Below, piece by piece: positions 44,399 to 63,165 of a DNA stretch of 64,000 nucleotides. The first letter of the stretch is position 1. Every line of letters begins with the position of its first letter. Position numbers and translations under genes: made by a program. The notes beneath the pieces are model-generated. The model ran no database searches, had not been told where the DNA came from, and saw nothing but the letters and a program-made list of their open reading frames with translations. This stretch comes from Devosia sp. MC521 (GTDB taxonomy: Bacteria > Pseudomonadota > Alphaproteobacteria > Rhizobiales > Devosiaceae). The DNA lies in assembly GCF_014127105.1 (NCBI RefSeq), contig NZ_CP059902.1, positions 653,001 to 717,000 on the forward strand. The letters are read 5' to 3'.

Positions 44399-45265
44399 AT
44401 GCTGGACCTAGTGGGAATGCTACAGACCGAGAAGGATAGTTTCACACGCTCAGAGCGCGTGTTGACAGATATCGTTCTTGCAGACGTCGATGGCGCTCTC
44501 AAAATGTCCATCGTGGACTTGGCCGCCCAAGCTGACGTGTCGCCGCCAACGGTGACACGTTTCTGCCGCCGCCTCGGCTGCGACAGCTACGCCGATTTTA
44601 AAGTCCGTCTGGCACAGTCCCGCTTCGTCGGTCAGCGCTATTTCGCGCCCTCATCTGGTCCGTCCAGCGTGCGCGAAATCGCCCAGGGCGTCATCAACGG
44701 CATTCAATCGACGGTTTATGACACCTTCGAGACCTGCGATTTCGACGCCATCGATAGCGCTGCCGAAGCCATTGTACGGGCCAGTTTCGTCATGACCTTT
44801 GGCTCCGGAGGCGCGTCCTCCATGCTGGCCACGGAAACCGAAGCCCGCTTCTTCCGGCTGGGTCTTAAGGTGGCATCCTCGGTTGACCATCAAATGCAGA
44901 TGATGCGGGCTGCCTCCGCTCCAGCGGAAAGCGTGGTCGTCGCCTTTTCGCTCTCGGGCAATAACATGCCGCTGGTCAATGCGATCTCGGTGGCCAAGGA
45001 ATACGGCGCGACCTGCGTAGTGCTCACCCGTGCCAATTCCCCCATGGCCGCGCAGGCCGACATTTTCGTGCCTGTAACCTGGCGTGAAAATCAGGACATT
45101 CTCCGCCCCACGCCGAGCCGCTACTCCTTCCTGGCCGTGCTCGACATTCTCTCCCAGACCGTCGCCGCCCGCCTCGGCCCGCAAGCCGTCGTCAGCATGC
45201 GCCGCATTAAGCACCAGTTGGTCATCCACCGCGACGGCGACGACGCCCAACCGCTAGGCGACTAA
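44399..45265 (+). CDS. RpiR/MurR-family transcriptional regulator
   Basis: The product is 288 residues. The HTH_6 domain covers about residues 1-80 (SIVDLAAQADVSPPTVTRFC). A SIS domain covers about 125-260 (SFVMTFGSGGASSMLA, VVAFSLSGNNMPLVNAI), which binds phosphosugars. It is the last gene of the sugar-importer operon and probably controls it. Confidence 0.88.
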   Translation: MLDLVGMLQTEKDSFTRSERVLTDIVLADVDGALKMSIVDLAAQADVSPPTVTRFCRRLGCDSYADFKVRLAQSRFVGQRYFAPSSGPSSVREIAQGVINGIQSTVYDTFETCDFDAIDSAAEAIVRASFVMTFGSGGASSMLATETEARFFRLGLKVASSVDHQMQMMRAASAPAESVVVAFSLSGNNMPLVNAISVAKEYGATCVVLTRANSPMAAQADIFVPVTWRENQDILRPTPSRYSFLAVLDILSQTVAARLGPQAVVSMRRIKHQLVIHRDGDDAQPLGD

Positions 45266-50858: not shown

Positions 50859-51764
50859 TTATTCGGCCATTGGGCGGATGAAGTGGTTCTCGGCAATCTG
50901 GTGAATATTAGATTGGGGCAGGGCGGAGCGACGGCGAATGTCTTCGATCTGTTCTAGCTCACCCGGTTGCGCCGCATCGAAGCGTCGATCCGGGTCCGGC
51001 ACCGCCGCCAACAAGAGGCGGGTATAGGGGTGCTGCGGATTGGTCAGAACGCTGTCGGTTGCGCCCCATTCGACGATCTGCCCCGCATACATCACCATGA
51101 TGTCCTCGGCGACAAAACGGGCAGTGGCGATGTCGTGTGTGATATAGAGAAGAGCGAGATTATCGTTCTTTTTCATATCGTTAAGCAAGTTTAACACGCC
51201 AAGGCGCACCGATACGTCGAGCATTGACGTTGGCTCGTCGGCAACGATGACCTTGGGGTTCACCGCCAAAGCGCGGGCAATCGAAATACGCTGACGCTGA
51301 CCGCCCGAAAGCTCGTGCGGATATTTCTTCATCACCAGCTCGGGGTCGAGGCGGACGCGACGCAGCAGCTCTTCGACCTTCTCGTGGCGCTGCGCCTTAT
51401 TGAGCTGCTTCTGATGCAGTTTGAGCGGGCGCTCGAGATGGTAGAAAATTGTATGCGTTGGGTTCAGCGACGAGAATGGGTCCTGAAACACCATCTGCAC
51501 CGAAGCTCTGTAGTCCTTGAGCGCCTTGGTATTGGCCTTGCCGAGCGGCTGACCATTGAACATCAACTGGCCCTCCTCTGGCGTATACTCTCGCATGATG
51601 AGGCGTGCAGCCGTGGTCTTGCCGGAGCCGCTTTCGCCCACCAGGGCGAGGGTGCGACCGGCATGAAGGCCAAAGCTGACCGAGCGTGCGGCATAGACCG
51701 GATTGGTGGCCCGACCGAAGACTTTTGAGACATTGTCGAGGGCGAGAACTGGTGACTGGCTCAT
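50859..51764 (-). CDS. Oligopeptide ABC transporter ATP-binding protein (OppF/DppF type)
   Basis: The product is 301 residues. It has Walker A GESGSGKTT, Q-loop VFQDPFSSLNP, signature [14 protein letters not shown], Walker B VIVADEPTSMLD and an oligo_HPY C-terminus (NPQHPYTRLLLAAVP). It is last of the opp set and overlaps oppD by 4 bp. Confidence 0.9.
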   Translation of the reverse strand: MSQSPVLALDNVSKVFGRATNPVYAARSVSFGLHAGRTLALVGESGSGKTTAARLIMREYTPEEGQLMFNGQPLGKANTKALKDYRASVQMVFQDPFSSLNPTHTIFYHLERPLKLHQKQLNKAQRHEKVEELLRRVRLDPELVMKKYPHELSGGQRQRISIARALAVNPKVIVADEPTSMLDVSVRLGVLNLLNDMKKNDNLALLYITHDIATARFVAEDIMVMYAGQIVEWGATDSVLTNPQHPYTRLLLAAVPDPDRRFDAAQPGELEQIEDIRRRSALPQSNIHQIAENHFIRPMAE

Positions 51765-52579
51765 GCCGATGCCTCCGGGCGGATTTGCTCGCCATGGAGC
51801 TTGGGCATCGAGGCCCAGAGTTTCTTGGTGTAGTCGTGCTGGGGCGAATTATAGATCGTCTGGCTGTCGTTGCATTCGACCATCTCGCCACTGAGCATAA
51901 TGCCAATGCGATCGCTGACCTGCACCATCAGCCCCAGATCATGGGTGATGAACAGCACGGAAAAGCCCAAGCGCTTGCGTAGTACGTCGATGCGCTGAAG
52001 GATTTCGCGCTGCACCACCACGTCGAGCGCTGTCGTTGGCTCATCCATGATCAGCAGCTTTGGATTGAGCGACAAACAGATAGCAATAACAATACGTTGG
52101 CGCATGCCGCCCGAACATTGGTGCGGGTAAACGTCGAGGCGATCCGGCGAAATGTCGACCAGCTTGAGCAGTTCTGCTGCCCGCTCACGGGCTTCGGCGC
52201 GGGTGACCTTGGTGTGAGTTTTCAGCACATCGTAGAACTGGTCTGCGATGGTCAAAACCGGATTGAGCGAGTTCATCGCGCTCTGGAACACCATGGCCAC
52301 TTCGCGCCAACGGAAGCTTTTCAGCTCCTTGTCGTTGAGCTGCAGCACATCGCGGCCGCCAACGATAATCTCACTGCCCTTACGGATCAGGGCCGGGGGG
52401 CGATGCAGGCGGCTAATCGCAAAAGCGATCGTGCTCTTGCCGCAGCCGGACTCTCCAGCGAGGCCAAAAAACTCGCCCGGTGCGATGTCGAAGCTGACGT
52501 CTTTAACGGCGCTGAAATTCTTGTCCGCGCCAATATAGTCGATGTTGAGGTTACGAACTGAGAGAACGGGATAGGTCAT
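51761..52579 (-). CDS. Oligopeptide ABC transporter ATP-binding protein (OppD/DppD type)
   Basis: The product is 272 residues from ATG 52579; the longer frame is the shadow of the permease gene. It has Walker A GESGCGKST, signature CSGGMRQRIVIAI, Walker [13 protein letters not shown] and an NSPQHDYTKKLWASMP end. The signature carries Cys where Leu is usual. It overlaps the oppC gene by 4 bp. Confidence 0.88.
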   Translation of the reverse strand: MTYPVLSVRNLNIDYIGADKNFSAVKDVSFDIAPGEFFGLAGESGCGKSTIAFAISRLHRPPALIRKGSEIIVGGRDVLQLNDKELKSFRWREVAMVFQSAMNSLNPVLTIADQFYDVLKTHTKVTRAEARERAAELLKLVDISPDRLDVYPHQCSGGMRQRIVIAICLSLNPKLLIMDEPTTALDVVVQREILQRIDVLRKRLGFSVLFITHDLGLMVQVSDRIGIMLSGEMVECNDSQTIYNSPQHDYTKKLWASMPKLHGEQIRPEASA

Positions 52580-53463
52580 AGCTTGCCCTCTCCAAGACGG
52601 ACCATTCTGGTCCAACGTGTCAGCATGCCCCCGGTGCGCAGACGCGGATTGGCGATCTCGTCGATGGCGAAGTTGATGAGCGCCAAGCTGAGGCCCAGCA
52701 CGGCCAGAGCAAAGCAAGGCGAGAGCAGGTCCCACCACGCGCCAACTGACAGCGCCGAAGCGTTCTGCGCGTTGAACAACATGATGCCCCAAGAGACGGT
52801 ATTCGGATCGCCAAGGCCGAGGAACTCAAGGGTAGCTTCGGTGATGACGGCGTAAATAACCGAGCCGATGAAGTTGATGCCAACAATGGAGATCAGGTTC
52901 GGGAAAATCTCGAGCGCCATGATGCGCCATGCCGGTTCACCGAGCATTTCGGCGGATTTGACATAGTCGCGCTGGCGAATGGAAAGGGTTTCCGAACGGG
53001 TGACCCGCACGCCCCAGGCCCATGAGGTAACCCCCAAAATAAGGGCGATTACCAAGGGGCTAGCCTGACCAATGAATGCGGCCAGAACCAGCAACAACGG
53101 CAGGTTGGGAACAACGAGGACCATGTTGGTGAAGAAGTTGATCACTTCATCGACCACACCGCCCTTATAGCCCGCAATAATGCCCAGCACGGTGCCAATC
53201 ACGGTGATGAGCAGACCTGCGCCAAAGCCCACGGCGAGAGAAACGCGGGCGCCATAGATCAGGCGGGTGAACACGTCATGCCCAAGGCGGGTTGTGCCCA
53301 GCCAGTGGTCCGCAGAAGGCGGCTGGTGCGGACGGCCAACGCGCTGGGTTGGGCTGTATTCCGTTAGGAACGGCGCGAAGATCGCGACGAGGATGATAAG
53401 GAACAACAGCGAAAGCCCAATCACGGCTTTCTTGTTATGTTTGAGTTGGTTGAGCAGGTCCAT
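52576..53463 (-). CDS. Oligopeptide ABC transporter permease (OppC/DppC type)
   Basis: The product is 295 residues. An N-terminal OppC-type anchor (KKAVIGLSLLFLIILVAIF) precedes HWLGTTRLGHDVFTRLIYGA and the EAA loop (VKSAEMLGEPAWRIMALEI). It lies 3 nt downstream of oppB. Confidence 0.9.
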   Translation of the reverse strand: MDLLNQLKHNKKAVIGLSLLFLIILVAIFAPFLTEYSPTQRVGRPHQPPSADHWLGTTRLGHDVFTRLIYGARVSLAVGFGAGLLITVIGTVLGIIAGYKGGVVDEVINFFTNMVLVVPNLPLLLVLAAFIGQASPLVIALILGVTSWAWGVRVTRSETLSIRQRDYVKSAEMLGEPAWRIMALEIFPNLISIVGINFIGSVIYAVITEATLEFLGLGDPNTVSWGIMLFNAQNASALSVGAWWDLLSPCFALAVLGLSLALINFAIDEIANPRLRTGGMLTRWTRMVRLGEGKL

Positions 53464-53466
53464 GAC

Positions 53467-54444
53467 TTACGCCTTCTTCAAGCGCGGATCGAGCAGGACA
53501 TAGCTCAGATCGACGACAAAATTGGAGACCAGCATTGCGGCGGTCATGATCAGCAACTGCCCTTGGATGACGGGATAGTCGCGAGCCAGAATGGCTTGGT
53601 AGAGCGTGTTGCCGAGGCCGGGGTAGTTGAACACCACTTCCACCACCAGCGCGCCACCGAGGACTGTGCCCAATGCAATGGCAAGGCTCGATACGGTCGG
53701 CAGCAGCGCGTTACGCGCCGCGTACCAGATCATGACGCGATTGTCGGAGAGGCCCTTGGCGCGACCCATGACGATGTAATCTTCGCCCAACAGGTTGATC
53801 ATATTGTTGCGCATGGTCACGGCGAAGCCGCCGGTCATGACGAATAGCATGGTCAGCAGCGGCAGAGTGCCGTGACGAATGACGCTCCAGATATACTCGC
53901 CGCTAAAGGCGGGATCGAGCATGGGGTCTGCAGCATAGCCATTGGGGAACCATTTCAGCGTGTAGCCAAAGATGAACAGCATCACCAGCGACACCACAAC
54001 GGCCGGAACCGAGCTGGCAAAAATCGCCAGTAGGGACACGAAGGAGTCGAATATCGTGCCACGACGCCAAGCGGCCATAACACCGAGCAAGGTACCCAAG
54101 ACGAACGACAGAACGGTGGCGAGGCCCATTAGCCCCAGCGTCCAGACCAGAGCGCGCATCAGCAGCTCTGTCACGGGCAGCGGGAAAAACTTGATCGAGC
54201 GGCCGAGATCGCCGGTAAATACGCTCTTGAGATAGGCCAGATATTGCTCGCCAATCGGCGCATCGATGAAGCCAAATGTCAGCTTCAGAGCGTTCAGATT
54301 TTCGAGGCTGAGTTCAGAACCCGCGCTCGCAAACATGATCTGGATAGGATCGCCGGGCATAAGGCGCGGCAGGAAGAAATTGATTGTCGCAGCAACGATA
54401 AAGGCGGCGAAATAGAATGCGAGCCGCCGAAGCAGGAAAGCCAT
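53467..54444 (-). CDS. Oligopeptide ABC transporter permease (OppB/DppB type)
   Basis: The product is 325 residues with six membrane helices. NFFLPRLMPGDPI near the N-terminus and the C-terminal DYIVMGRAKGLSDNRVMIWY loop and FNYPGLGNTLYQAI are OppB signatures. It is separated from oppA by a hairpin. Confidence 0.9.
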   Translation of the reverse strand: MAFLLRRLAFYFAAFIVAATINFFLPRLMPGDPIQIMFASAGSELSLENLNALKLTFGFIDAPIGEQYLAYLKSVFTGDLGRSIKFFPLPVTELLMRALVWTLGLMGLATVLSFVLGTLLGVMAAWRRGTIFDSFVSLLAIFASSVPAVVVSLVMLFIFGYTLKWFPNGYAADPMLDPAFSGEYIWSVIRHGTLPLLTMLFVMTGGFAVTMRNNMINLLGEDYIVMGRAKGLSDNRVMIWYAARNALLPTVSSLAIALGTVLGGALVVEVVFNYPGLGNTLYQAILARDYPVIQGQLLIMTAAMLVSNFVVDLSYVLLDPRLKKA

Positions 54445-54527: not shown

Positions 54528-56186
54528 TTACTGAGCGACCGGGTCGAGGTCGAGCAGCTGCAGAACACGCGCCGGGTTAGCGTTCGAGACAACAGGCGAG
54601 TACTTCGGATTTTCGGCATCAGCCCAACCCGTGAAGCGCTTGGTGTTGTACTCGTAGAACGATGGGCTGTTGTAGAGCGGCACGATTGGCAGCGCTTCAG
54701 CAATGATCAGCTGAATCTTGTCCATCGCGGTCTTACGAGTGGCCGGGTCCTTGCTCTGCTTGTATTCAGACAGGAGCTTGGAAACCTCTTCACTCGACCA
54801 GTGTGGTGCGGTGAAGCGCGACTTGCCGAAATCATCCGGGTTGTAGGAACGGATGTACGGGAAGTACGGGTCGGCAGCCGATGCCAGTGCGTTCAGCGTC
54901 ATGGAGTATTCGCCCGAGATCAGCGCTGCGGTCCACACGGCGGCTTCTGGCGTGCTCATCTTCACGTTGAGGCCAGCCTGCTGCATGGTTTCCATGGAGA
55001 TCTGAACCGCGTCGATCCAGTCGGTCCAACCGTTTGGCACCATGAAGTCGATTTCGAGCTTGGAGCCATCCGGATTGTCACGGAAGCCATCATTGTCGGC
55101 GTCAACATAACCAGCTTCGTCCAGAAGAGCGACGCCAGCGTCATAGTTGAATTCGCCGTATTGGCCGAACTGTGCCTTCACTTCCGGATTGCCGAAGGAC
55201 GCATAGAGTTCGCCTAGGCCCGATGGATCGCCATTGACCAGCGGATAGCCATAGCCAGCGATGTCGACGATGGTCTGACGGTCAATGATCATGCTCAGCG
55301 CACGACGGAAGTTGACGTCGGTGTAAGCCTTACGAGCGTTCTCGTCTGGCGAAACCTGGCTCATCTGCAGCGAGACGAGGCTCGATGGGGTGAACCAATA
55401 TTTGTGGTGTTCCGGGTCCTTGGCAACAAAGGTGTTGTCGATGTCCGGGATGAAGCTGGTTGCCCAGTCGAGCGAGCCTTCAGCGAGAGCCGCGAGAACC
55501 TGCGGGTTGTCGGCCAGCTGCGGCATGCGCAGGCAGTCAACGGCAAGGTTGTCATTGTCCCAATAGTGCGGGTTACGGCACTGTTCGTAGACGTTCGGGG
55601 TGAAACGGGTGATTTCGGTCATTGGACCGGAAGCCACAGGGGTTTCATTGGCGAAGGTCACCGGATCTTCAATCGACGCCCAGATGTGCTCGGGCACGAT
55701 CGGCATGTCGACGATGGTGTTAGCGATCAGCGAGTTGGCTTCCTTGAGGTTGAAGCGAACGGTGCGATCATCGACCTTTTCAACCGAGTTCAGCTGCTGG
55801 GTGACCGAGATGAAATCGAGAGCCGGGAACTTGGCGATATAGTCATAGGTGAAGATGATGTCGTCAGCAGTGAGGGCTTCACCGTCCGACCACTTGAGGC
55901 CTTCACGCAAGGTGAAGGTTATCGACATCAGATCGTCAGCCAGCTCAAAGCTTTCGGCAAGACGGAAGTGCGGCTCGTTGCCGTTCAGGCGATTAAATAC
56001 CACCAATGGCTCATAGATGAAGTGGAGCGTGGTGAAGCGGGCAGATGTCTGACCGAATGGATTGAAGTTGCGAACAAAGGTTGTCGTCTGTTCCGACGAG
56101 ATGGTCAGCACGTTCTGCGCAAAAGCAGGCGCAGCCATGGTCAACACTGCTGCGGACGTTGCCGCGAGAAGCATGAGCTTCTTCAT
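54528..56186 (-). CDS. Oligopeptide ABC transporter substrate-binding protein (OppA/DppA type)
   Basis: The product is 552 residues from ATG 56186, which has AAGGAG upstream; the longer frame runs into nagZ. The signal peptide is cleaved after PAFA near residue 23 (mature QNVLTISSEQTTTFVRNF). The family-5 binding fold is shown by FTLREGLKWSDGEALTADD and the RRALSMIIDRQ segment. It lies 28 nt after nagZ, so muropeptides or related peptides are likely ligands; this is inference. Confidence 0.88.
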   Translation of the reverse strand: MKKLMLLAATSAAVLTMAAPAFAQNVLTISSEQTTTFVRNFNPFGQTSARFTTLHFIYEPLVVFNRLNGNEPHFRLAESFELADDLMSITFTLREGLKWSDGEALTADDIIFTYDYIAKFPALDFISVTQQLNSVEKVDDRTVRFNLKEANSLIANTIVDMPIVPEHIWASIEDPVTFANETPVASGPMTEITRFTPNVYEQCRNPHYWDNDNLAVDCLRMPQLADNPQVLAALAEGSLDWATSFIPDIDNTFVAKDPEHHKYWFTPSSLVSLQMSQVSPDENARKAYTDVNFRRALSMIIDRQTIVDIAGYGYPLVNGDPSGLGELYASFGNPEVKAQFGQYGEFNYDAGVALLDEAGYVDADNDGFRDNPDGSKLEIDFMVPNGWTDWIDAVQISMETMQQAGLNVKMSTPEAAVWTAALISGEYSMTLNALASAADPYFPYIRSYNPDDFGKSRFTAPHWSSEEVSKLLSEYKQSKDPATRKTAMDKIQLIIAEALPIVPLYNSPSFYEYNTKRFTGWADAENPKYSPVVSNANPARVLQLLDLDPVAQ

Positions 56187-56214: not shown

Positions 56215-57240
56215 TTAGGCGATGCCACTCTCCCTGAAAATTTCTTCAACCTCGGCATGGAGCGCTTGTACGTCCACGCGAGTAGTCCCCAGTCTGGCTT
56301 CGGCGCGAGCAATGCGCTTCAGACTTACCTCGCTCAACGGACGAGCAGCTTTGCATGCAGCTTCGCTTTGAGAAAGGTCGCCCTGACTGTGAAGGGCGAT
56401 ATCGTAACCGGCATCGAGCGCGGCAGTGACGCGACTGTCCCATGTGCCTGAGAGGGCGTCCATGGTGAGGCAGTCGGTGGTCAGAACGCCGTCATAGCCG
56501 AGAGTATTGCGGATGAGATCACAGACTTTCGGCGAGATTGACGCCGGCAGGTCTGGGTCAATCCTGGTGAAAATCAGATGCGCGACCATGGCCCAAGGCG
56601 TGTCCTTGAGTCGCATAAAGGGCAGGAAGTCTGTACCCATGAGATCGGCCACATCGGCATGCACCACGGGCAGATCGTGGTGCGGGTCGACCTCAACGCG
56701 GCCATAGCCGGGGACATGTTTCATGATCGGCATAGAGCCAGTCTCGAGCAGCGCATCGATAGCGACGCGCCCGAGAACGGCGACGATTTCCGGATCAGAG
56801 CTGAACGTGCGCGAGGAAATGATGGCGTGCGTCCCGGCGCGAGCGAGGTCGACCACGGGGGCCGTTCCGGAGCCGATATGCATTTCGCTCATCATCGAGC
56901 CCATCGCTAGATGGGATTGACGCAGCGCATGCTTGGCTAGGTCCAAATCTATTTTTGCCAATTGGCCGAAGTGACCTAGCGGACGGAATAGGGGCCAGTT
57001 GCCATTGTCGAGGCGCTGCACGCGCCCGCCTTCCTGATCAATATAGACCGGAGCATTGTCGCGCCCAACAGCTTCTCGGAACTGGGCGACGAGACGGCGA
57101 ACCTGGTCATTATTCTGCACATTGCGCTTGAACAGAAACAGGCCAAACGGATTGGCTTCTTTGAAAAACGCGACCTCATTTTCCGACAACTCAGGGCTGG
57201 GCATGCCAACGAAAAGTGCGAGTGGAGTTGAGGTCGACAT
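56215..57240 (-). CDS. nagZ: Beta-N-acetylhexosaminidase (GH3, NagZ type)
   Basis: The product is 341 residues, the size of NagZ, without a signal peptide. YIDQEGGRVQRL, KHVPGYGRVEVDPHHDLP (catalytic Asp-x-His pair) and VLTTDCLTMDAL (nucleophile Asp) are GH3 NagZ motifs. Where most have KHxPGHG the second His is Tyr. It removes GlcNAc from muropeptides in the cytoplasm. It is 5 nt after the GNAT gene and just before oppA. Confidence 0.88.
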   Translation of the reverse strand: MSTSTPLALFVGMPSPELSENEVAFFKEANPFGLFLFKRNVQNNDQVRRLVAQFREAVGRDNAPVYIDQEGGRVQRLDNGNWPLFRPLGHFGQLAKIDLDLAKHALRQSHLAMGSMMSEMHIGSGTAPVVDLARAGTHAIISSRTFSSDPEIVAVLGRVAIDALLETGSMPIMKHVPGYGRVEVDPHHDLPVVHADVADLMGTDFLPFMRLKDTPWAMVAHLIFTRIDPDLPASISPKVCDLIRNTLGYDGVLTTDCLTMDALSGTWDSRVTAALDAGYDIALHSQGDLSQSEAACKAARPLSEVSLKRIARAEARLGTTRVDVQALHAEVEEIFRESGIA

Positions 57241-57245
57241 AGATA

Positions 57246-57734
57246 CTAGTCCTCGACGAGCGGCTTCTTAATCCGAAGCAGCCCTTGGTAAATGTCTTCG
57301 TTGTCAGAGGGGATGGGTAGGGCGCCTACCGCATTTTTATAGAAATCGATCGGTCCAGCCGAGCCAATCACCGCATAGGCGTAGCCTTGGGCTTTCATGG
57401 CGACGAGTGTGCGATGGAATAGCGCGAGGCCAATGCCTTTGCCGCGCTGGCTTTCGTCAACGCCCGTTGGCCCAAAAAAGCCCTTGGCGGTCGCATCGTA
57501 GCAAGCAAAGCCGACGAGCTTGCCGTCAACAATAGCTACGAGGCACCCCGGCGGCTGATGCGCCATGGCCACTGTCAGTTCACTGACCCAGTATTCAGAA
57601 AAATGCTCACGCACCCAATTCTGAATAATATGCATTTCCGGGGGCAGGGCGACCCGAATGGTCGCCTCCACACCCGTAGTGCGCTCGCCAAGCTCTTCTA
57701 GTTTGCGACTATAGAGGTTGACCAGAAGGTCCAT
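57246..57734 (-). CDS. GNAT-family N-acetyltransferase
   Basis: The product is 162 residues from ATG 57734, 1 nt beyond the murQ stop; the longer frame overlaps murQ. LVAIVDGKLVGFACYDATAK and ESQRGKGIGLALFHRTL (acetyl-CoA motif A, R-x-x-G-x-G) are GNAT marks, and PIDFYKNAVGA is the C-terminal motif. Its place between murQ and nagZ suggests acetylation or detoxification of an amino sugar or peptide from peptidoglycan. The substrate is unknown. Confidence 0.83.
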   Translation of the reverse strand: MDLLVNLYSRKLEELGERTTGVEATIRVALPPEMHIIQNWVREHFSEYWVSELTVAMAHQPPGCLVAIVDGKLVGFACYDATAKGFFGPTGVDESQRGKGIGLALFHRTLVAMKAQGYAYAVIGSAGPIDFYKNAVGALPIPSDNEDIYQGLLRIKKPLVED

Positions 57735-57735
57735 T

Positions 57736-58677
57736 TCAGTCCGCCTTGTTCTCGCTGACAGCGCGACGGAGGAAGCCATCTGCACTTGTCAGAGCAGTTG
57801 TCGCTGCATCCTTATCGAGGCCAGTAAGGGCCATCAGAATAGCGAGCTTAACGTTATTGCCTGAACGGTCGAGATAAATTTCAGCTTCGGCAGTATCGAG
57901 GCCGGTCACTTCGCCGATGATACGCACCGCACGGGCAGCCAGCTTTTCATTGCTCACTGACACGTCGACCATGAGGTTTTCATAGGACTTGCCGATACGG
58001 ATCATGCTGGCGGTTGTCAGCATGTTGAGCACGAGCTTCTGCGCGGTGCCCGACTTGAGACGGGTCGAACCGGTCAATGATTCTGGGCCAACCAGCGGCG
58101 AGATCGCGATGTCAGCCATGTTGGCGATTGGCGAATTCGGATTGCAGGTGAGCGAAACGGTAACGGCACCGAGCGACTTGGCATAATCCAGCGCGCCGAT
58201 AACATAAGGGGTACGGCCGCTGACGGCGATGCCGACGACAACATCATTGGCAGTGGCGTTCACACGAACGAGATCGCGCTGACCTTCGCTGCGATCGTCT
58301 TCCGCGCCTTCGATGGGATAACGCAGGGCAGTGTCACCACCCGCGATAATGCCAACCACCATAGTGTCCGGCACGCCGAAGGTTGGTGGACATTCAGAGG
58401 CGTCGAGAACACCAAGACGGCCCGAAGTGCCTGCGCCCATATAGATCAGGCGCCCGCCCTTGCGGAACGCATCAACAATGCGATCAACGGCTTGGGCGAT
58501 CTGTGGGAGTTCGTGTCGTACAGCTTCCGCAACCTTTGCGTCCTGCGCGTTCATCGCGGCAAGAATCTGCTCGGTCGACATCAAGTCGATCTGCATGGTT
58601 TCCGGATTGCGAGCTTCCGACACGAGGTGCTCAAGTTCTGCAATTAGGGTGCTTTTGGACATCGTGCCTTCACTCAT
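57736..58677 (-). CDS. murQ: N-acetylmuramic acid 6-phosphate etherase
   Basis: The product is 313 residues (308 if the Met at residue 6 is used). [26 protein letters not shown] and [13 protein letters not shown] are the MurQ signatures of the SIS fold. It splits the lactyl ether of MurNAc-6-phosphate to GlcNAc-6-phosphate and D-lactate. It heads the minus-strand operon and is divergent from an RpiR/MurR gene, the same arrangement as E. coli murQ/murR. Confidence 0.95.
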
Positions 58678-58688
58678 GGATTGATTTG

Positions 58689-58717
58689 ATGCTAGGAGCG
58701 AATATTCCGGCTGTCAA
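58689..58717 (-). promoter_or_regulatory. Probable murQ promoter
   Basis: On the minus strand TTGACA (rc of 58712-58717), a 17-nt spacer and TAGCAT (rc of 58689-58694) form a sigma70-like pair ending 12 nt before the murQ start. GGAATATTC, a partial operator word, lies in the spacer. Confidence 0.55.
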
Positions 58718-58725
58718 TCAAACTT

Positions 58726-58740
58726 GGAATTATGTATTCC
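58726..58740. promoter_or_regulatory. Putative RpiR/MurR operator in murQ-rpiR divergent region
   Basis: GGAATTATGTATTCC is a GGAAT-N5-ATTCC palindrome, 8 nt beyond the murQ -35. The same form occurs at 59680-59694, before the importer genes. Confidence 0.65.
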
Positions 58741-58772
58741 ATATGTGGAAACGATGATCGTGGGGAGCGAGC

Positions 58773-59621
58773 ATGTCAGTTCTCAGGTTGTTAAGTGCCC
58801 ATTTGGACACGTTAACGCAGGCTGATCGGCAGATCGCACAATTCATTATAGACCAGCCTGAACAGATGTTGGCGCTATCCTCTTCAGGCCTAGCGGAGGC
58901 AACGGGGCGTAGCCAATCCGCGGTCGTTAAGTTCAGCCAGAAACTCGGCTATTCCGGTTATCAGCAGCTCAAGTTGGCGGTGAACAAAGCCAAGGCGATG
59001 GAATGGCAGGCGCCCGGTGGCGTCATCCACGGTTCGATCGATTCTGCCGATAACTACATGACTATTTTGCAGAAGCTGATCGGTTCTAAGCTTCTGTCCA
59101 TGCGCGAAACCACGGCCGCAAACTCCGAGCAAACCATTGATCTGGCGCTTGAGGCTTTGCATGGCGCCAACCGCATCCAACTCAGCGGTGTTGGCGCATC
59201 TTCCCTTGTGGCGCGGGACTTTTCTTACAAGCTGATGAAGCTTGGACGTGTCGTTATGCTCGACAACGACACCCATATTCAGCTGGTGAACGCGGCAAAT
59301 CTCACAAAGGACGATGTCTTTGTGGCGCTGTCCCATTCCGGCCGTAGCTTGGAAACCCTGCGCACGGCGGAAGTTGCCAAGAAACGCGGTGCAACGGTCA
59401 TTTCGGTGACCGGCCTGCAGCCAAACCCACTGATCGATCTGGCCGATATTCACCTCTTTACGGTGGGTGATGAAGAACGCGTGCGCTCGTCAGCAATAAC
59501 CTCGCGCGACGCCCAATTCATTCTCACAGATATGCTTTTCATCCTGCTGTTACGCCGCCAGCCAGGATCGACCGATTACATTCAGGGCAGCGAGTCAGCC
59601 GTGACGATCCTTAAAGTCTGA
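58773..59621 (+). CDS. RpiR/MurR-family transcriptional regulator, second copy
   Basis: The product is 282 residues from ATG 58773 (GGGGAG upstream). The HTH_6 domain covers about residues 1-80 (ALSSSGLAEATGRSQSAVVKF). A SIS domain covers about 125-260 (NRIQLSGVGASSLVARDF, VFVALSHSGRSLETL). Such proteins sense phosphosugars such as MurNAc-6-phosphate. It lies between two copies of one palindrome and is probably the local regulator. Confidence 0.9.
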   Translation: MSVLRLLSAHLDTLTQADRQIAQFIIDQPEQMLALSSSGLAEATGRSQSAVVKFSQKLGYSGYQQLKLAVNKAKAMEWQAPGGVIHGSIDSADNYMTILQKLIGSKLLSMRETTAANSEQTIDLALEALHGANRIQLSGVGASSLVARDFSYKLMKLGRVVMLDNDTHIQLVNAANLTKDDVFVALSHSGRSLETLRTAEVAKKRGATVISVTGLQPNPLIDLADIHLFTVGDEERVRSSAITSRDAQFILTDMLFILLLRRQPGSTDYIQGSESAVTILKV

Positions 59622-59660
59622 ACTGTCGGAATTCGTCGTCTGGGTTGTAATTTTATATTC

Positions 59661-59694
59661 TTGACACATGTGGGTTTGTGGAATTTACTATTCC
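59661..59694 (+). promoter_or_regulatory. Probable importer promoter with overlapping RpiR/MurR operator
   Basis: TTGACA (59661-59666), a 17-nt spacer and TTTACT (59684-59689) form a promoter. GGAATTTACTATTCC (59680-59694) has the same GGAAT-N5-ATTCC form as 58726-58740 and covers the -10, so binding should repress the genes at 59765 onward. Confidence 0.65.
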
Positions 59695-59764: not shown

Positions 59765-60826
59765 GTGGCTCAACTTTCGCTACGTGGCATCAAGAAAAGC
59801 TTCCGAAGCGTTGACGTCTTGCATGGCGTTGATCTTGAGATTGGCGATAAGGAATTCGTCGTCTTTGTCGGTCCCTCGGGCTGCGGCAAGTCAACACTCC
59901 TCCGTTTGATCGCTGGTCTCGATCCGCTCACCGGCGGTGACTTCTATCTCAACGGCCAGTTGATGAATGACGTGCCTCCGTCCAAGCGCGGCATCGCCAT
60001 GGTGTTCCAGTCCTATGCGCTCTACCCGCATATGGATGTTTACGAGAACATGGCCTTTGGCGCGCGCCTCATGGGGCTAAGCAAGGAAGAAGTCGAAAGC
60101 CGCATTGCAGAAGCAGCCCGCATGCTGCGCCTAGAGCCGCTGCTGAAGCGCAAGCCGCGCGAACTCTCTGGTGGTCAGCGCCAGCGCGTCGCTATTGGTC
60201 GCGCCTTGGTGCGTAAGCCAAGCGTCTTCCTGCTCGATGAGCCACTTTCTAACCTTGACGCGGCGCTGCGCTCGGAAGTTCGCCTCGAGATCGCTCGTCT
60301 ACATCGCCAGATTGGCGGTACGATGATTTACGTGACCCACGATCAGGTTGAAGCGATGACGCTCGCCGATAAGATCGTGGTCATGAACGCGGGTCGTATT
60401 GAACAAGTCGGCTCCCCGCGCGAGCTGTATGAAACGCCGGCTAATACGTTCGTCGCGAGTTTTATTGGGTCGCCGCGCATGACGCTCGTTGACGTGGTGC
60501 GCGCCGGGGATAGGCTTGAGCTCGCCGGGAATGGCGGCTCCGTCTCTGTTGGTGAGCTGCCCGCGGGCGATGAGTTTAAGCTGGGCCTGCGTTCTGACGC
60601 TGTTGGTCTCAGCCGCGATATCACAGCTGCGGGCTTTGCCGCGCACGTGGTTTACACCGAATACCTAGGCGACAACGCCTATGTGTATGTCCGCCTAGTC
60701 GATGGCACCCTGCTGGCTGCTCGCACCGGGCCGGACGATCTCTATCAGCCCGACACCGCAGTAACCGTGACGGTGCTGCCTGGTAGCGCGCATCTGTTTT
60801 CCGCAACGGATGGTCGGCGCATTTAG
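59765..60826 (+). CDS. Sugar ABC transporter ATP-binding protein (MalK/UgpC type)
   Basis: The product is 353 residues from GTG 59765. It has Walker [11 protein letters not shown]-loop [11 protein letters not shown], signature [14 protein letters not shown], Walker [20 protein letters not shown] and a TOBE domain after about residue 240. Being next to the RpiR gene and the probable MurR-type operator, it should serve uptake of an amino sugar such as MurNAc or GlcNAc-linked compounds. Confidence 0.9.
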   Translation: MAQLSLRGIKKSFRSVDVLHGVDLEIGDKEFVVFVGPSGCGKSTLLRLIAGLDPLTGGDFYLNGQLMNDVPPSKRGIAMVFQSYALYPHMDVYENMAFGARLMGLSKEEVESRIAEAARMLRLEPLLKRKPRELSGGQRQRVAIGRALVRKPSVFLLDEPLSNLDAALRSEVRLEIARLHRQIGGTMIYVTHDQVEAMTLADKIVVMNAGRIEQVGSPRELYETPANTFVASFIGSPRMTLVDVVRAGDRLELAGNGGSVSVGELPAGDEFKLGLRSDAVGLSRDITAAGFAAHVVYTEYLGDNAYVYVRLVDGTLLAARTGPDDLYQPDTAVTVTVLPGSAHLFSATDGRRI

Positions 60827-60875: not shown

Positions 60876-62117
60876 ATGAAGACCAATATGCTCCGCATCG
60901 GTTCGGCACTTGCCGCCATGCTGATTGCTGCCCCGTCTTTCGCTCAGGACCTGACATTCTGGTCCTGGCGCCAGGAAGACAAGGCCGCTTACGAAGGCTT
61001 TATCAAGACCTTCGAAGCCGCCAACCCGGGCATCACCGTCAAGTTCGAAACTTTCGAAGCGACGAACTACAACACCATTCTCGCCACCGCACTGGCTGGC
61101 GGCACCGGTCCTGATATTGCTCAGGTTCGTGCCTATGGTGGCCTCGAAAACCTCGCAGTGGGTGGCTATCTTGAGCCGCTGACCGTTGAGAACGTTCCTG
61201 CGATTGCCAACTTCAATCCAGCCGCTCTCAAGGCTGAATCGATGCGCGCTGACGGCACTCTGTATGCGATCCCATTCGCATCGCAGACCCAGCTCGTCAT
61301 CTACAATAAGGCGATCTTCGACCAGCATGGCATTGCTGAACCGACCACTTGGGAAGAGCTGATTGCTGCTTCGCAGAAGCTCAAGGACGCTGGCGTTATT
61401 CCATTCGCCAACGGCACCGCAACGGCTTGGCAGAACGAAACCGTCACCTTCGGTCTTGGTTCGACCCTGTTCGGTCGCGCTTTCTATGATGAGCTGGTCG
61501 CTGGCACCACCGACTTCAACGATCCGCGCTTCACCGGCGCGCTCGGCGATATCGCAGCACTCGCCAAGGACTATTTCCCAGAAGGCTTCATCGGTCTCGA
61601 CTATCCGTCGATGCAGCAGCTCTTCGCTTCGGGCATGGCGGCAATGTTCGTCGGTGGTTCGTATGAACTCTCGACCTTCAAGACCATGAACCCAGACATC
61701 CAGACCGGCATGTTCGCCGCTCCGGGCAAAGCCGCTGACGACGAAAAGCTCGTCGCCATTTACTTCGACGGTGGCTATGCCATCAACGAAGCTGGCAAGA
61801 ACAAGGAAGCATCCTTCAAGTTCCTCAACTACCTCGCTTCGACCGAATTCGGTCAGGCTATGGCTGATGAGCTGAAGACCCTTTCGGCTGTTCCAGGCGT
61901 GAAGTTCGAAACCGAAGATCTGGCTGAAATCAACGAGCTTAACCAGAACTCGATTCCTTACCTGATGCTGGCACACTTCCGCTTTGGCGAACCTTCGGGT
62001 TCGGTCCTGATCCAGGCCGAAATGCAGAAGCTGTTCTCGGGCGAAACCACTCCGGAAGCTATTGGTGAAGCGCTCACCACCGGTCTGGCTGCTTGGTATG
62101 AACCGTTCAAGAAGTAA
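60876..62117 (+). CDS. Sugar ABC transporter substrate-binding protein
   Basis: The product is 413 residues with a signal peptide cleaved after PSFA near residue 23 (mature QDLTFWSWRQEDKAAYEGF). Family-1 solute-binding features include YAIPFASQTQLVIYNKAIF and PTTWEELI. It is the periplasmic receptor of the importer; the ligand is unknown but amino sugars or muropeptide sugars fit the context. Confidence 0.88.
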   Translation: MKTNMLRIGSALAAMLIAAPSFAQDLTFWSWRQEDKAAYEGFIKTFEAANPGITVKFETFEATNYNTILATALAGGTGPDIAQVRAYGGLENLAVGGYLEPLTVENVPAIANFNPAALKAESMRADGTLYAIPFASQTQLVIYNKAIFDQHGIAEPTTWEELIAASQKLKDAGVIPFANGTATAWQNETVTFGLGSTLFGRAFYDELVAGTTDFNDPRFTGALGDIAALAKDYFPEGFIGLDYPSMQQLFASGMAAMFVGGSYELSTFKTMNPDIQTGMFAAPGKAADDEKLVAIYFDGGYAINEAGKNKEASFKFLNYLASTEFGQAMADELKTLSAVPGVKFETEDLAEINELNQNSIPYLMLAHFRFGEPSGSVLIQAEMQKLFSGETTPEAIGEALTTGLAAWYEPFKK

Positions 62118-62244: not shown

Positions 62245-63165
62245 ATGCCTCAACTCCGTATGACCGGTCGCGGTCTCTGGATCACCATGCTGATTGTGCC
62301 GCCGCTGGCTTTCGTGGCGCTCTTTATCGTCTATCCAATTCTGTCCGCCTTCGCCTATTCCTTCTTTGATTGGCAGGGGCTGAAGCGCGGCGACTTCGTT
62401 GGTCTTGAAAACTTCCACACGGTGCTCTTCGTCGAGCCTTACCGCAGCTGGACAATGAATGCCTTCAAGAACAACGTCATAGTATTCTTCGCGCTGATGG
62501 TGCTGCAGAACGGCTTGGGCTTCATCCTCGCCTATGCGCTATGGCGTGAACTGCCCGGCGCCCGCTTCCACCGGATCGCCGTCTTCCTGCCCGTGGTGCT
62601 CTCGACCATTATCGTGGCTTACCTCTTCAAGCTCTTCTACCATCCAATGTTCGGCGTGGTGAATTTGACGCTGAAGTCGGTAGGATTGGGCTGGTTGGCA
62701 CAACCCTGGCTCGGCCAGTCGGGCACGGCCCTGTGGTCGATCATTGTCGCGCAGGCATGGCATATGGTTGGTTTCCCAACGCTCGTCTTCCTTGCGGGCA
62801 TGCAGCGCATTCCGGGCGAAATCCTTGACGCCGTCCGCATGGAAACCGAGAGCGAATGGGTGAAGATCACCAAGGTCGTGTGGCCGCTGGTCGCGCCATC
62901 CGCGACAATCGTTTTCACCTTGCTCTTCGTGGGCGCATTCAACTGGTTCGAGCTGCCCTACATCATGGCAGGCCTTGATGGGTCGCCGTTCGGTTCCTCG
63001 GACGTGCTCGGCCTCTACTTCTACCGAACCGCCTTCGGCAACGTCTCTGCCGGTCAACAGGACTTTGGCCTTGGCAGTGCGCTGGCTGTGCTCATCTTCG
63101 TCTTTATTGCGGTCGTGGCTGCTGTCATCACCACCCGCCTGCGCGCTCGTGAGATCCAGATATGA
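62245..63165 (+). CDS. Sugar ABC transporter permease (MalF/UgpA type)
   Basis: The product is 306 residues with six membrane helices. Its coupling loop is EILDAVRMETESEWVKITKV; the usual EAA residues are less conserved than in the other permeases here. It overlaps the next permease gene by 4 bp. Confidence 0.88.
   Translation: MPQLRMTGRGLWITMLIVPPLAFVALFIVYPILSAFAYSFFDWQGLKRGDFVGLENFHTVLFVEPYRSWTMNAFKNNVIVFFALMVLQNGLGFILAYALWRELPGARFHRIAVFLPVVLSTIIVAYLFKLFYHPMFGVVNLTLKSVGLGWLAQPWLGQSGTALWSIIVAQAWHMVGFPTLVFLAGMQRIPGEILDAVRMETESEWVKITKVVWPLVAPSATIVFTLLFVGAFNWFELPYIMAGLDGSPFGSSDVLGLYFYRTAFGNVSAGQQDFGLGSALAVLIFVFIAVVAAVITTRLRAREIQI

Follow-up and report, generated by a model that had tools for sequence, protein, structure and literature searches.

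Paired GGAAT-N5-ATTCC palindromes around an RpiR-family gene of Devosia sp. MC521 point to MurR-like control of cell-wall-sugar recycling genes and a neighbouring sugar importer

MurR-like control by an RpiR protein is a known kind of regulation, and the RpiR family also includes IolR of Caulobacter. In E. coli, a MurR tetramer has been proposed to bridge two sites that are 17 bp apart, span 47 bp in total and overlap the -35 and -10 elements (PMC12713135). The NanR proteins of S. pneumoniae and V. vulnificus resemble the system described here in their family, in their amino-sugar-phosphate effectors and in the proposed tetramer bridging of neighbouring sites (PMC12713135), but murQ is not a target of either. 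S. pneumoniae NanR also differs in being an activator with another recognition sequence; its effector leaves DNA affinity unchanged, and the RpiR regulators reported other than this one are repressors (PMC12713135). IolR is the myo-inositol regulator of a Caulobacter/rhizobial module and has, like the locus studied here, an alphaproteobacterial palindrome with GGAA and TTCC ends (PMC2597717). However, that palindrome is GGAA-N6-TTCC and belongs to inositol genes, whereas the sites in the 64-kb stretch of Devosia sp. MC521 DNA that we analysed (the window) read GGAA-N7-TTCC and lie at murQ, nagZ, opp and importer genes; they are not operators of the IolR type.

To our knowledge, the control of cell-wall sugar reuse in Rhizobiales has been little studied. 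Rhizobiales are reported to be without the muropeptide permease AmpG (PMC9790009). The open-licence papers that we searched did not describe a regulon of this kind in Devosia or rhizobia, though absence there proves little; within that literature, there seems to be no earlier report of the Devosia/rhizobial regulon, of an ABC importer carrying its second operator pair, or of YfhH as a further user of the operator code.

The genes of the locus, with the evidence for each assignment, were the following:

50859-54444, minus strand: oppB, oppC, oppD and oppF-like transporter genes (contiguous with oppA; orthologues adjacent in genome G238)
54528-56186, minus strand: oppA-like substrate-binding protein (PF00496; ORF list start 56312, likely start taken from the signal peptide)
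56215-57240, minus strand: nagZ-like GH3 beta-N-acetylhexosaminidase (PF00933; PRK05337 at 180 bits, below the cut-off of 207)
57246-57734, minus strand: GNAT-family acetyltransferase (PF00583; ORF list start 57785, relatives align from residue 18)
57736-58662, minus strand: murQ, N-acetylmuramic acid 6-phosphate etherase (TIGR00274 at 408 bits, cut-off 302)
58773-59621, plus strand: RpiR-family regulator with HTH_6 and SIS domains (Pfam PF01418, PF01380), proposed binder of all four sites listed further below
59765-60826, plus strand: ABC sugar importer ATPase of the UgpC/MalK type (PRK11650 at 440 bits, cut-off 432)
60876-62117, plus strand: CUT1 substrate-binding protein (ORF list and Pfam)
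62245-63165, and 63162 to beyond the window end, plus strand: two CUT1 permeases (ORF list and Pfam)

Translation of murQ probably begins with the ATG at 58662, where conservation sets in within the alignment, and not the upstream ATG at 58677 of the ORF list. An AnmK gene is present elsewhere in the Devosia sp. MC521 genome.

The first-pass annotation had reported one palindrome, GGAAT-N5-ATTCC, at two positions of this locus, and both 15-mers were found there: GGAATTATGTATTCC (58726-58740) and GGAATTTACTATTCC (59680-59694) were the only zero-mismatch matches in the window. From base composition, 0.04 exact sites are expected per window and about 1.5e-4 in both intergenic gaps combined. The genome scan that the annotation had proposed as a check gave 5 exact sites in 3.78 Mb, against about 2.3 expected from base composition, while a reversed control pattern had no match across the whole genome. 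The other three exact sites overlapped the start codon of a GGDEF-type ORF, lay in an intergenic region, and lay inside a parB-like coding sequence, respectively; none of the three had a partner at 31-33 bp, they look like chance occurrences by position and context, and they were rejected as regulon members for want of that partner. Recurring exact sites in the relatives that were checked were likewise rejected, as they lay within protein-coding reading frames; one example is the NADH dehydrogenase subunit D-like GGAATTCGACATTCC. Judged by their distribution, the two locus sites are more than chance, because each of the 24 same-genus genomes with an orthologue of this RpiR gene, that of Devosia sp. 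MC521 among them, carries exactly two exact copies at the locus, flanking rpiR on either side.

Those orthologues were 69-79% identical to the window protein in the 23 other same-genus genomes (first sample), and its nearest named relatives are from Devosia. The order murQ <- rpiR -> importer, with the regulator gene divergent from murQ as in E. coli, was kept in 23 of the 24 genomes; rpiR had looked inverted in half of the genomes, but this came from unoriented loci, and the order was the same after tblastn. The arms of the sites were invariant, against flanking bases that agreed in only about 8-15 of the 24 sequences. In a larger set of loci, in which some genomes were counted in two collections and the genomes are related rather than independent samples, all 43 Devosia-group loci with a visible importer had a site before it; where the murQ start could be seen, 39 out of 40 had an exact site and L072 a site with a single mismatch.

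An alignment of the promoters from the same-genus genomes placed a second conserved element next to each strong site. In this alignment, each palindrome is the strong half of a conserved double site of 47-48 bp, a point missing from the first-pass annotation. The candidate operators and promoter elements of both pairs were the following:

58689-58694, minus strand: murQ promoter, TAGCAT as the -10 hexamer, with a 17-bp spacer to the -35 (promoter scan and alignment)
58694-58708, no strand assigned: weak operator of the murQ/rpiR pair, AGGAGCGAATATTCC, matching 7/10 arm bases and separated from its strong partner by 17 bp
58712-58717, minus strand: murQ promoter, TTGACA as the -35 hexamer, between both operators (promoter scan and alignment)
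58726-58740, no strand assigned: strong operator of the murQ/rpiR pair (exact match; arms invariant in 24/24 same-genus genomes)
59647-59661, no strand assigned: weak operator of the importer pair, GTAATTTTATATTCT, matching 8/10 arm bases and separated from its strong partner by 18 bp
59661-59666, plus strand: importer promoter, TTGACA as the -35 hexamer, between both operators (alignment)
59680-59694, no strand assigned: strong operator of the importer pair, over the likely -10 (exact match; arms invariant in 24/24 genomes)
59686-59691, plus strand: importer promoter, TACTAT as the likely -10 hexamer, within the strong operator (inferred from position)

Read toward murQ, the order is the strong site, 8 bp, TTGACA, the weak partner GGAATATT (minus strand) within the -35/-10 spacer, and TAGCAT; this weak partner is retained by nearly all genomes of the genus. 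Toward the importer, whose ATPase is the first gene behind the pair, the order is GTAAT-N5-ATTCT, TTGACA and the strong site covering the likely -10, and the GTAAT-N5-ATTCT element is kept across the genus at 32-33 bp. Only the murQ promoter is canonical (TTGACA 58717-58712, 17 bp, TAGCAT 58694-58689). The second palindrome had been described as covering the -10 of a good promoter: it does contain the likely -10, but the spacing to TTGACA is 19 bp, and a promoter scan with 16-18-bp spacers therefore omits this promoter.

The pairing was recurrent. Among 127 representative strong sites, 93 had a partner 31-34 bp away that matched 7/10 arm bases or more, with a peak at 32/33 bp, against 0-5 sites in each of thirteen other distance bins; about a quarter were without such a partner. 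A 47-bp pair model, built from sequence only and with the left pair in its training set and the right pair outside it, matched just two places in its own genome at E<=10, with E 5e-9 for the left pair and E 1.4e-4 for the right. There were no matches of this model in seven same-genus genomes without the RpiR orthologue. It also recovered relocated copies in three genomes, all outside the training set: in G020, murQ-GNAT-nagZ-opp is on another contig, where murQ is preceded by an exact site at 70 bp, and in G021 and G023, GNAT-nagZ-opp is elsewhere with two exact sites upstream in each. The relocated genes have kept their sites, and thus the sites follow the genes.

The regulator is a clear RpiR-family member, with 68 bits to PF01418 (HTH_6; cut-off 28.3) and 82.7 bits to PF01380 (SIS; cut-off 25). 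Its score to the MurR equivalog of NCBIfam (PRK15482) was 169 bits against a cut-off of 408, and its best NCBIfam model was the YfhH equivalog (PRK11557), at 225 bits against a cut-off of 355. As the MurR cut-off is not reached, our claim is that the protein works like MurR, which the sequence comparisons support, and not that it is a MurR orthologue. Its best PDB match was the sugar-phosphate (SIS) domain of E. coli MurR (7en5/7en6). The recognition helix is SQSAVVKFSQKLG in the window protein, SQSSVVKFSQKLG in the Rhizobium orthologue, SQSSIVKFAQKLG in E. coli MurR, to which it is nearly identical, and SQSSVVKFAQKLG in YfhH, and all four proteins compared have SQS(S/A)(V/I)VKF(S/A)QKLG in common.

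Outside Devosia, the regulator was 62-67% identical in Rhizobium, Neorhizobium, Mesorhizobium and Brucella. In these four genera, an exact site was present upstream of rpiR in 71 out of 72 loci, and a site before murQ in all 52 loci with a visible start (39 within 200 bp and 13 at about 205-230 bp). We also read three loci in full, L082 (Rhizobium), L101 (Brucella) and L121 (Mesorhizobium). There the regulator gene is divergent from a paralogue of MurA (UDP-GlcNAc enolpyruvyl transferase), followed by a NagK-like kinase and then by murQ with its own operator; no NanE was seen in these three loci.

When the Devosia arms were used to scan the gap between murR and murQ of E. coli, they recovered AGACTCAATGATTCC-17 bp-GGGATATATGATTCC. 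The two systems have in common two copies of the GGAAT-N5-ATTCC motif around promoter elements, with a gap in Devosia of 17 bp on the left and 18 bp on the right. The loci differ in transport, with the PTS transporter MurP in E. coli and importers of the Opp-type and CUT1-type ABC classes in the window, and the window locus has a second operator pair, at the importer. The palindromes are almost certainly, as far as sequence can tell, operators of the RpiR protein encoded between them. The first-pass annotation had tied the murQ-nagZ-opp run and the importer to this one regulator, a reading that gains support from the co-occurrence of sites and RpiR gene across five genera, and further from the absence of pairs from same-genus genomes that lack the gene, the sites that accompany moved murQ and nagZ-opp genes, the E. 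coli murR-murQ geometry and the common helix.

Because matching paired sites, laid out like those of E. coli MurR, flank the regulator gene, one switch probably governs the genes for cell-wall-sugar recycling together with the adjacent sugar importer. In the reading that we prefer, with a probability of roughly 0.9, a MurR-like tetrameric RpiR repressor would act through paired operators on murQ-GNAT-nagZ-opp and on importer-nanE-kinase and would probably be released by MurNAc-6-P. The protein would occupy one perfect and one degenerate site per promoter, with the -35 between them; the site starts, 32-33 bp apart, would lie three helical turns from each other (47-48 bp in all), and a tetramer could bridge both sites on one face of the DNA and exclude RNA polymerase. 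The bound tetramer would repress murQ-GNAT-nagZ-oppABCDF to the left and the sugar importer-nanE-kinase run to the right; the left pair, being placed between murQ and rpiR, may in addition control how much regulator is made. Upon entry and phosphorylation of a cell-wall sugar, the sugar phosphate would bind the SIS domain and free the DNA. Binding, tetramer bridging, repression and effector are what we infer, and the direction of control is assumed. A sharply defined single switch over murQ, nagZ, the Opp transporter and a sugar importer would make a concrete, testable regulon.

The effector is most likely MurNAc-6-P, the substrate of MurQ; we put it first since the regulator has MurQ as its constant partner. 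The importer run, however, continues beyond the window end with the second permease and then a NanE-family epimerase and a BadF-type, NagK-like kinase, and with a NanE-like epimerase in the run, ManNAc-6-P or GlcNAc-6-P is possible as effector. The palindromes would then still be operators of the RpiR protein, but the importer would serve amino sugars generally, with murQ as one user; MurQ, too, ends at GlcNAc-6-P, and the NanR proteins of V. vulnificus and S. pneumoniae sense ManNAc-6-P (PMC12713135). We consider this rather unlikely, though a serious candidate: the Rhizobiaceae/Brucella orthologue is linked to murQ, the MurA paralogue and the kinase, and no NanE was seen in the three loci that we read; of the solved structures, that of E. 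coli MurR comes closest to the SIS domain; and nagB, a nearby gene in the genome, was unmatched by the paired model at E<=10.

Repression by the RpiR protein, as opposed to activation, is suggested by the operator positions and by what has been reported for most family members. At murQ, the strong site is upstream of the -35, a place that could also favour activation as reported for S. pneumoniae NanR, and an RpiR activator with a strong site and a degenerate half-site has been described (PMC12713135). Yet the importer strong site over the -10 and the murQ weak site between -35 and -10 are both in polymerase-blocking positions, and with the remaining reported RpiR regulators being repressors (PMC12713135), activation seems improbable.

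Two different regulators with look-alike sites, or chance similarity, would be in line with the chance-like character of the three other genomic sites and with the GGAA..TTCC half-sites that RpiR members such as IolR can share (PMC2597717). However, the strict co-occurrence with the RpiR gene, the paired spacing and the model matching two places only make this very improbable, as do the other four RpiR proteins of the genome, which have different recognition helices and no operator pair of this kind. It is just as hard to credit that the palindromes are kept as promoter or RNA elements (an extended -10 or a hairpin) and not as protein-binding sites, for although the importer site overlaps the likely -10, the murQ strong site is upstream of the -35 and would not be transcribed from the murQ promoter, the spacers vary while both arms are fixed in the 24-genome alignment, and the motif is found again in E. 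coli and at the relocated genes.

The same layout was found upstream of E. coli yfhH (E. coli K-12 NC_000913.3, 2694000-2703000, L155), as GGAATTTTTAATTCA-17 bp-GGAATATAAAATTCA, 32 bp apart, and a pair at 32-33 bp was the best tandem match in 10 out of 11 enterobacterial YfhH orthologues. YfhH, which one paper treats as a hypothetical factor, is thus like the window regulator in its recognition helix and in its upstream GGAAT-N5-ATTC(A) pair, but unlike it does not adjoin murQ in E. coli. It seems fairly probable that RpiR proteins with the helix SQSSVVKF-QKLG follow one operator code in alpha- and gammaproteobacteria: two GGAAT-N5-ATTCC-like sites, often one of them degenerate, that start 32-33 bp from each other and are bridged by a tetramer. 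Such a code would cover the Devosia/rhizobial murQ regulons, E. coli MurR and YfhH. If this is true, the targets of YfhH are predictable from sequence, and a paired-operator rule common to E. coli MurR and YfhH makes an uncharacterised regulator of the best-studied bacterium testable.

Finally, a second RpiR-family gene lies in the window at 44417-44620 (plus strand; L038), about 14 kb from the first and with a different recognition helix, and similar RpiR genes are near the first RpiR gene in other genomes of the genus. Two gammaproteobacterial RpiR relatives (L179 and L180, family f96) have the helix SQSTIVKFSQKLG and a GGAAT-N4-ATTCC site upstream, one base shorter.
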